Positions 8,698 to 10,565 of a stretch of DNA of 46,061 nucleotides are shown here, one piece after another. How positions within the stretch are numbered: position 1 is the stretch's first letter; each line of letters opens with the position of its first letter. Source of the DNA: Desulfitobacteriaceae bacterium (GTDB lineage Bacteria; Bacillota; Desulfitobacteriia; Desulfitobacteriales; Desulfitobacteriaceae); the NCBI GenBank assembly GCA_028704155.1, contig JAQVLN010000003.1:1-46061 (forward strand), written 5' to 3'. The notes beneath the pieces are model-generated. The model was not told the DNA's origin. It saw only the letters and a program-made list of their open reading frames with translations, and made no database searches. The translations under genes and the position numbers were made by a program.

Positions 8698-9264
8698 TTA
8701 AAATCGATATGCTTTTTCCTCAGTAATCAGCAAGGACATCTTTTTATCATGTTCAACAACCGGAACCCCAGCTATTATCTGACAATTAAATGCTACAGCC
8801 ACCCGGGGGACTGACGGTGAAAGGAGTCGGAAAAAACGATCATAATAACCCATACCATAGCCCAAACGGTTACCTGCCAGGTCAAAAGCTGCTCCCGGGA
8901 CAAGCACAAAGTCAATCTCCGAAATTTCAGCCTTAACCAATCTCTCCCCGGCAGGTTCCCTGATACCCCACATTCCGGTCACAAGTTCACCCAAATCTTT
9001 AATTACTGCCGGAATTATAATTCCTCCGGGTTCACAAAAAGGTAAGACCAACTGTTTACCACCAGCCAAAATATCTTCAGCCAATCCTTTTGTTTCAACC
9101 TCATCCCGGAAATTCATAAATAGCATTAAAGTCCGGGCTATCCGGTATTCAGCTAGAGCCATAACCTTTTTCTGAATAAGCAAACTTTTTTCTGTTCTTG
9201 CTGTCTCTCCCAGGCTTGCTCTTTTAGCCAAGACCTGCTTGCGTATTTCTTTTTTATCTTTCAT
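8698..9264 (-). CDS. 5-formyltetrahydrofolate cyclo-ligase
   Basis: The enzyme converts 5-formyl-THF to 5,10-methenyl-THF using ATP in the cytosol, returning folate to the one-carbon pool. The 188-aa protein has the family's N-terminal basic helix (KKEIRKQVLAKRASL) and the signature LVPGAAFDLAGNRLGYGMGY followed by YDRF near the C-terminus. An upstream GTG at 9288 adds eight residues but has no ribosome binding site; I prefer the ATG at 9264, which has a weak AAAGAGA upstream. The region upstream holds the DnaA-box array rather than an obvious promoter. Confidence 0.93.
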   Translation of the reverse strand: MKDKKEIRKQVLAKRASLGETARTEKSLLIQKKVMALAEYRIARTLMLFMNFRDEVETKGLAEDILAGGKQLVLPFCEPGGIIIPAVIKDLGELVTGMWGIREPAGERLVKAEISEIDFVLVPGAAFDLAGNRLGYGMGYYDRFFRLLSPSVPRVAVAFNCQIIAGVPVVEHDKKMSLLITEEKAYRF

Positions 9265-9349
9265 AATTATTCTCTTTTCAATAACCACTGTAATGTTTTC
9301 TTTTTACACTTCAGTCAAGCTAAATTAATAATGGTTAGCAAGCTTAAAA

Positions 9350-9519
9350 ATAACCACACAATTATCCCCAAAAAGAAAGTATTATTTAAGCCAAGTACCA
9401 CACTTATCCACATTATCCACAAAGGCCTGTGGGTAACTTTCGACATCGAGCACAATTATACCCGGATTCTGTTAGTTAACAGTTATTTATTAACACCCTG
9501 CTTATCCACATCATCCACA
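9350..9519. promoter_or_regulatory. Cluster of DnaA boxes
   Basis: Three perfect TTATCCACA boxes are at 9404-9412, 9413-9421 and 9502-9510. One-mismatch boxes are TTATCCCCA at 9362-9370, TCATCCACA at 9511-9519 and, on the minus strand, TTACCCACA at 9428-9436. A two-mismatch box is at 9350-9358. Two pairs are exactly head to tail with no spacer. The array fills the gap between tsaD and the cyclo-ligase gene, both read away from or across it on the minus strand. No dnaA or dnaN gene is nearby, so it is more likely a DnaA-titrating or regulatory cluster than oriC. Confidence 0.85.
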
Positions 9520-9536
9520 AAAAAACAGGGGTTAAG

Positions 9537-10565
9537 TTAGATTAAGCCTAACCCCGGTACAGCATTAAGTGTCCAGGGAGCAAAGTCTCCCTCCAAGTAG
9601 CGATAATATCCGGCGGTAGCTATCATCGCCCCATTATCTGTACAAAAAAGGGGAGGAGGAAATACCAGGCGCACCTGTTGATAAACTAATTCCCGGGCGA
9701 GTGTTTCCCTGAGTAATTCATTAGCTGCAACACCACCGGCCAGTACAAGGGTTTTTACTCTTGTTTGGTTTAAGGCAATTTTAGTTTTGCGAACCAGCAC
9801 ATCAACAATTGCTTCCTGAAAGGAAGCCGCGATATCTGCCGCATTCAATTCCTGCCCTTTCATACGGGCAGAATTCAGAGTATTCAGGACTGAAGATTTT
9901 ACTCCACTGAAACTAAAATCCAAACTCCCGGGTTCCAGCATTGCCCGCGGGAAATCAAAAGCTTTGGCATCTCCTTCCCTTGCCTTGCTTTGAATCTGCG
10001 GCCCACCGGGATAACCTAAACCAAGAACCCGGGCAATTTTATCCAAAGCTTCACCAGCTGCATCATCTCTGGTTTTTCCTAAAACCTGATAATCTCCGTG
10101 TCCCCTGAAAAGAATTAGATGAGTATGTCCGCCGGAAACCAACAAGGCTAACAGAGGAAACTCCAAATCAGGGTTGTGCAAAAAGTTAGCATAAATATGG
10201 CCTTCCAGATGATTAATGCCCAGCAAAGGTATATCCAAAGCGTAAGCCAGGGCCTTTGCTGCCGAAACTCCAACCAAAAGTGAACCTACCAATCCCGGCC
10301 CATATGTAACTGCAACTGCTGAAAGATCACTAAACTCAAGTTTGGCTTTCTCAAGAGCTTGTTGGACTACAGCCTGCCAATGCAGGGAATGCTCCCTCGA
10401 AGCAATTTCCGGAACAACCCCCCCGTATTTTTGGTGAGTTGCCGTTTGTGAAGTAATAATATGACTTAAAAGAGCAGTGCCATTTAACAACACTGCTGCC
10501 GAAGTATCATCACAGCTTGTTTCTATTCCTAATATACAGATTTTATTTTCAGTTTCGGTACTCAC
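9537..10565 (-). CDS. tsaD: tRNA N6-adenosine threonylcarbamoyltransferase TsaD
   Basis: TsaD transfers the threonylcarbamoyl group from TC-AMP to A37 of ANN-decoding tRNAs, working with TsaB and TsaE. The 342-aa protein has the ASKHA signature GIETSCDDTSAA at residues 13-24, the metal-binding histidines in the NHLEGHIYAN block near 117, and SGGHTHL near 143. The GTG start at 10565 overlaps the rimI stop by one base. It is the last gene of the tsaE-tsaB-rimI-tsaD run. Confidence 0.97.
   Translation of the reverse strand: MSTETENKICILGIETSCDDTSAAVLLNGTALLSHIITSQTATHQKYGGVVPEIASREHSLHWQAVVQQALEKAKLEFSDLSAVAVTYGPGLVGSLLVGVSAAKALAYALDIPLLGINHLEGHIYANFLHNPDLEFPLLALLVSGGHTHLILFRGHGDYQVLGKTRDDAAGEALDKIARVLGLGYPGGPQIQSKAREGDAKAFDFPRAMLEPGSLDFSFSGVKSSVLNTLNSARMKGQELNAADIAASFQEAIVDVLVRKTKIALNQTRVKTLVLAGGVAANELLRETLARELVYQQVRLVFPPPLFCTDNGAMIATAGYYRYLEGDFAPWTLNAVPGLGLI

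Follow-up and report, generated by a model that had tools for sequence, protein, structure and literature searches.

What role could a dense array of DnaA boxes play directly behind tsaD, away from any replication gene? The question arises from contig JAQVLN010000003.1 of a Desulfitobacteriaceae bacterium (GCA_028704155.1), from which a stretch of 46,061 nucleotides, here called the window, was analysed. A preliminary description of this DNA listed three perfect and three one-mismatch boxes, two exactly contiguous pairs among them, and regarded the array as an off-origin cluster which titrates DnaA or couples t6A and folate gene expression to replication.

A box scan returned all six boxes and both contiguous pairs as described (Table 1), and a further weak box at 9350, the start of the interval given in that description. 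The density is indeed far above chance, since all six boxes, none with more than one mismatch, fall inside 158 bp, where about 0.05 would be expected per 160 bp from the shuffled average of the window. The whole window holds 22 such boxes against 13.7 expected, and outside the cluster no other 160-bp stretch of it contains more than two. Genome-wide (2.26 Mb) there are 38 perfect boxes, three of which belong to the tsaD cluster.

Table 1. Features of the tsaD-cyclo-ligase interval of the window, and the datA boxes of E. coli K-12 used for comparison
Feature	Position	Strand	Remarks
5-formyltetrahydrofolate cyclo-ligase gene	8698..9288	-	TIGR02727; downstream neighbour, lineage-specific
Conserved module box-12-box-42-box-9-box	9344..9423	+	model R1: 40.1 bits; E 4.5e-10 in whole genome
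Weak DnaA box ATAACCACA	9350..9358	+	2 mismatches; 12 bp ahead of next box; fills a box position of model R1
DnaA box TTATCCCCA	9362..9370	+	1 mismatch; 42 bp ahead of the 9404/9413 pair
Perfect DnaA box TTATCCACA	9404..9412	+	opens contiguous pair
Perfect DnaA box TTATCCACA	9413..9421	+	closes the contiguous pair begun at 9404
Opposed DnaA box TTACCCACA	9428..9436	-	1 mismatch; likewise opposed in Desulfosporosinus relatives (L001, L002, L111-L113)
Partial second module around the 9502/9511 pair	9484..9525	+	model R1: 23.3 bits, E 1.7e-6
Perfect DnaA box TTATCCACA	9502..9510	+	opens second contiguous pair
DnaA box TCATCCACA	9511..9519	+	1 mismatch; closes second contiguous pair
Terminator-like hairpin, U7 tail, at tsaD 3' end	9519..9558	-	MFE -13.4 kcal/mol, z -1.97; abuts outermost box
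tsaD (gcp)	9537..10565	-	TIGR03723, E 2.3e-134
E. coli K-12 datA boxes	4392677, 4392744, 4392906, 4392918	+, +, +, -	within 4392677-4392926 (L249:4678-4927)

The genes are arranged in the order groEL-groES-NYN-cyclo-ligase, the boxes, and tsaD-rimI-tsaB-tsaE, groES being assigned solely from its position and size. Among named organisms, the closest relatives of the window's TsaD come from Desulfosporosinus (76% identity). The hairpin at the end of tsaD was missed by a simple terminator scan, which restricts loop size.

The conservation of this arrangement was investigated in the tsaD 3' flanks of 110 genomes belonging to 78 families of Bacillota, Bacillus-like and Paenibacillus-like genomes among them. 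Perfect boxes were scored as 2 and one-mismatch boxes as 1, and a sum of at least 4 within 250 bp was taken as a cluster. Clusters were found within 700 bp 3' of tsaD in 67 of the 110 flanks and in 49 of the 78 families, examples among named species being Desulfosporosinus nitroreducens, Alkaliphilus peptidifermentans, Thermovorax subterraneus, Thermosediminibacter litoriperuensis and Syntrophomonas zehnderi. A separate sample of the class Bacilli gave a cluster in 42 of 70 flanks within 700 bp, and in 48 of 70 when the whole flank read was considered. None of the 110 tsaD 5' flanks (700 bp) contained a cluster, the reversed pattern produced none in the phylum sample and 0/70 in Bacilli, and shuffling (50 per flank) essentially none. 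At 57 tsaD loci mostly outside Bacillota there was no 3' cluster, and the score never exceeded 2. These counts bear out the earlier proposal that the location may be conserved across Firmicutes. Some flanks without a cluster immediately after tsaD have one 1-3 kb on, past inserted genes. About one third of the sampled families have no detectable cluster near tsaD, and the element is therefore dispensable or shifts its place. These cluster-free lineages tend to be GC-rich, so that some absences may represent boxes too diverged for the search pattern.

The boxes also keep a fixed geometry. In the phylum flanks 316 of 359 boxes point against tsaD, and the common layout, read in box orientation, is a box followed by others in successive steps of +9, +12, +42 to 44 and +9, giving conserved offsets of about 0-9-21-63-72. 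Spacings of 9, 12, 21 and 42-44 bp exceeded all 500 randomisations in the phylum and Bacilli sets alike; the control spacings of 16, 28 and 57-59 were depleted in the same test. No conserved sequence was seen in the DNA between the box groups, and therefore the boxes and their spacing are what is kept. In the window the best-kept part of the layout comprises the boxes at 9350 (weak), 9362, 9404 and 9413. Position and layout are common to Bacilli and Clostridia. Since an array with the same spacing follows tsaD across much of Bacillota, the cluster is probably an ancient control element, acting on the timing of replication.

A model (R1) was built from 20 modules, all from tsaD flanks of Bacilli, and used to search a 150-genome sample of the phylum, with at most 26 candidates scored per genome. 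In the genome of the window the model matches best at the module in the tsaD cluster (Table 1). Among the best 150 matches listed, those within 5 kb 3' of tsaD number 80, every one antiparallel to the gene, with none in the 5 kb on its 5' side. The other 70 include 29 within 3 kb 3' of comF, of which, among the matches listed, 28 have the same orientation as comF; several of the remaining listed matches precede hpf, apparently in the same neighbourhood. At least 29 of the phylum genomes searched have a match at this second site. The window's own genome has a module with offsets 0-9-51 between comF and hpf (C46:39112-39184; L196:2613-2685).

The B. subtilis cluster near gcp, to which the preliminary description had referred, is confirmed in the literature: that species has eight high-affinity DnaA regions, and one of them lies 3' of gcp, its tsaD (PMC4447404). 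Downstream of gcp and ydiF there are 10 sites, to which DnaA binds with a Kd of 0.15 uM for ATP-DnaA and a 16-fold preference for ATP at 55 nM (PMC4447404). The gcp site is therefore already known, and the window cluster joins the same kind. Both consist of multiple DnaA boxes, off-origin but oriC-proximal, directly 3' of tsaD; the likeness in place rests on the published position, and spacing was compared through a Bacillus-like genome (G129) in which a convergent ABC-F gene adjoins tsaD and boxes at flank positions 156-165-207-219 repeat the 0-9-51-63 spacing of the window. The Bacillus-like and Paenibacillus-like labels used here are inferred: these genomes match YabA strongly and show the tsaD/ABC-F arrangement. 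The two loci differ in the gene downstream, which is the convergent ydiF in B. subtilis and the co-directional folate cyclo-ligase gene in the window; DnaA binding has been measured at the B. subtilis site. The ywlC, ywcI/vpr, sda, trmE and yydA clusters of B. subtilis share the kind of element and the proposed role; they sit upstream of genes, several of them DnaA-regulated (PMC4447404), whereas at tsaD the boxes follow the 3' end of a gene. A tsaC-linked cluster like that at ywlC was sought in the window's own genome, but the tsaC region has scattered one-mismatch boxes only.

Deletion of six off-origin clusters in B. subtilis leads to early initiation (reviewed in PMC5295017; PMC13220808), and putting one cluster back partly restores its timing (PMC5295017). 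From this deletion work titration or restraint of DnaA would be the favoured function. The ATP-preferring binding and the deletion effect together lead us to propose restraint by an ordered ATP-DnaA complex. It is accordingly likely, in our view, that the window holds an off-origin DnaA-box cluster, orthologous to that of gcp/ydiF and inherited in position since early in the Bacillota, which restrains initiation via ATP-DnaA; we infer that native DnaA would bind the window DNA and act there in this way. ATP-DnaA would bind the co-oriented boxes cooperatively, in a geometry near whole helix turns, with offsets of about 0, 21 and 63 in one set and of 9 and 72 in the other. Such a complex would draw DnaA away from oriC, and since replication reaches tsaD fairly early in every round, duplication of the site would help to prevent re-initiation. 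In 23 complete genomes of the phylum tsaD is mostly oriC-proximal, at 9-36% of chromosome length from dnaA (median 18.6%), which fits restraint. As overproduction of DnaA in B. subtilis did not cause over-initiation (PMC13220808), more than simple titration may be at work. A fixed spacing is not needed for passive titration, and this suggests something more specific.

In E. coli, the datA locus carries an IHF site and serves DnaA-ATP hydrolysis, while DARS1 and DARS2 accelerate nucleotide exchange on ADP-DnaA. A catalytic role of this type is retained as a rival because the preserved spacing exceeds what plain titration needs. The fixed geometry would then build, instead of a sink, a DnaA oligomer stimulating ATP hydrolysis (datA-like) or nucleotide exchange (DARS-like). 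Spacings near multiples of the helical repeat, an orientation kept in all 80 tsaD-linked matches among those listed and the marked preference for ATP at the orthologous site in B. subtilis (PMC4447404) are in keeping with such a scaffold, but the unconserved gaps yielded no accessory protein site, and control of DnaA in B. subtilis is ascribed mainly to proteins acting on cooperative binding, not on the ATPase (PMC4447404, PMC5295017). We consider it unlikely. The comparison with datA cuts both ways. Like the tsaD cluster, datA is a set of DnaA boxes outside the origin that follows a terminator; it affects initiation, as is proposed for the tsaD cluster, and it lies 2.7 kb from tsaE, so that both loci compared are near t6A genes, possibly by chance. 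It differs in requiring IHF (PMC10950094), in not being beside tsaD and in its box layout, with offsets of 0, 67, 229 and 241 as opposed to 0-9-21-63-72 in the window. A wider proposal, which we put forward as doubtful, is that the Bacillota share an ancient geometry-defined DnaA element at two off-origin places of fixed orientation, 3' of tsaD and 3' of comF, where a specific ATP-DnaA complex would act catalytically on the DnaA cycle like datA/DARS. If true, it would add a class of locus with no known example in the Bacillota.

Bound DnaA might alternatively regulate the neighbouring genes, by repressing the cyclo-ligase promoter or by blocking read-through from the tsaD operon. In the window the distance from the boxes to the cyclo-ligase start is 74-231 bp, the terminator-like hairpin extends as far as the first box, and several B. 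subtilis genes are repressed by DnaA (PMC4447404). Against this, the downstream gene varies among lineages: it is co-directional in 54 cases and convergent in 13, an ABC-F gene being the convergent neighbour in Bacillus-like and Paenibacillus-like genomes, and clusters persist where inserted genes displace them 1-3 kb from tsaD. This variation speaks against a conserved regulation of the downstream gene and leaves the coupling of t6A and folate expression, as first suggested, unsupported as a conserved function; local regulation is thus quite improbable as an account of the cluster.

A second replication origin, or the remnant of a former one, is a very improbable reading of the region. Its box density is like that of an oriC and, as further common ground, dnaA loci give partial matches to model R1; but the sole full-length dnaA of the genome lies with boxes of its own on another contig (C93, 56268-57572), and the tsaD cluster is not accompanied by adjacent dnaA and dnaN genes. 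GC skew is negative throughout 6 to 26 kb, with no change of sign around 9.4 kb, and the distance separating tsaD from dnaA in the phylum's complete genomes also speaks against an origin. The location of dnaA and the skew together rule the cluster out as oriC and uphold its original reading as several DnaA boxes clustered off-origin. Chance or compositional clustering, which could draw on an AT-rich genome where lone one-mismatch boxes are common, is refuted by the comparative data (essentially no clusters in shuffled flanks, none with the reversed pattern or upstream of tsaD, and independent recovery in Bacilli), and its probability is negligible.

To our knowledge, off-origin DnaA clusters in the Bacillota have been known from one model species. 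In the open literature that was searched there was no report of phylum-wide conservation, of the fixed geometry or of the comF counterpart. The same gene, orientation and spacing across Bacilli and Clostridia imply that selection has kept the element from an early stage of the phylum onwards. According to Smith and Grossman, the regions were too few to tell which features make some DnaA sites ATP-specific (PMC4447404); the present comparison supplies more than 100 regions for this question and points to spacing. The site 3' of comF provides a second conserved place, usable for deletion tests.

Several other clusters were observed. On contig C23 of the window's own genome (L190:4816-4874) four boxes, three of them perfect, lie within 59 bp with alternating strands beside a transposase-like ORF; with cobalt/precorrin and transposase genes as its neighbours, this cluster was ruled out as oriC. 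Six perfect boxes within 160 bp were found upstream of a LacI/CcpA-family regulator gene in one genome (G138; L237:1976-2134), apparently a lineage-specific feature. In another genome (G110; L240:1818-1939), a member of a family (f37) where no tsaD cluster was found, a cluster with the 9-12 spacing lies directly upstream of an RNase J gene.
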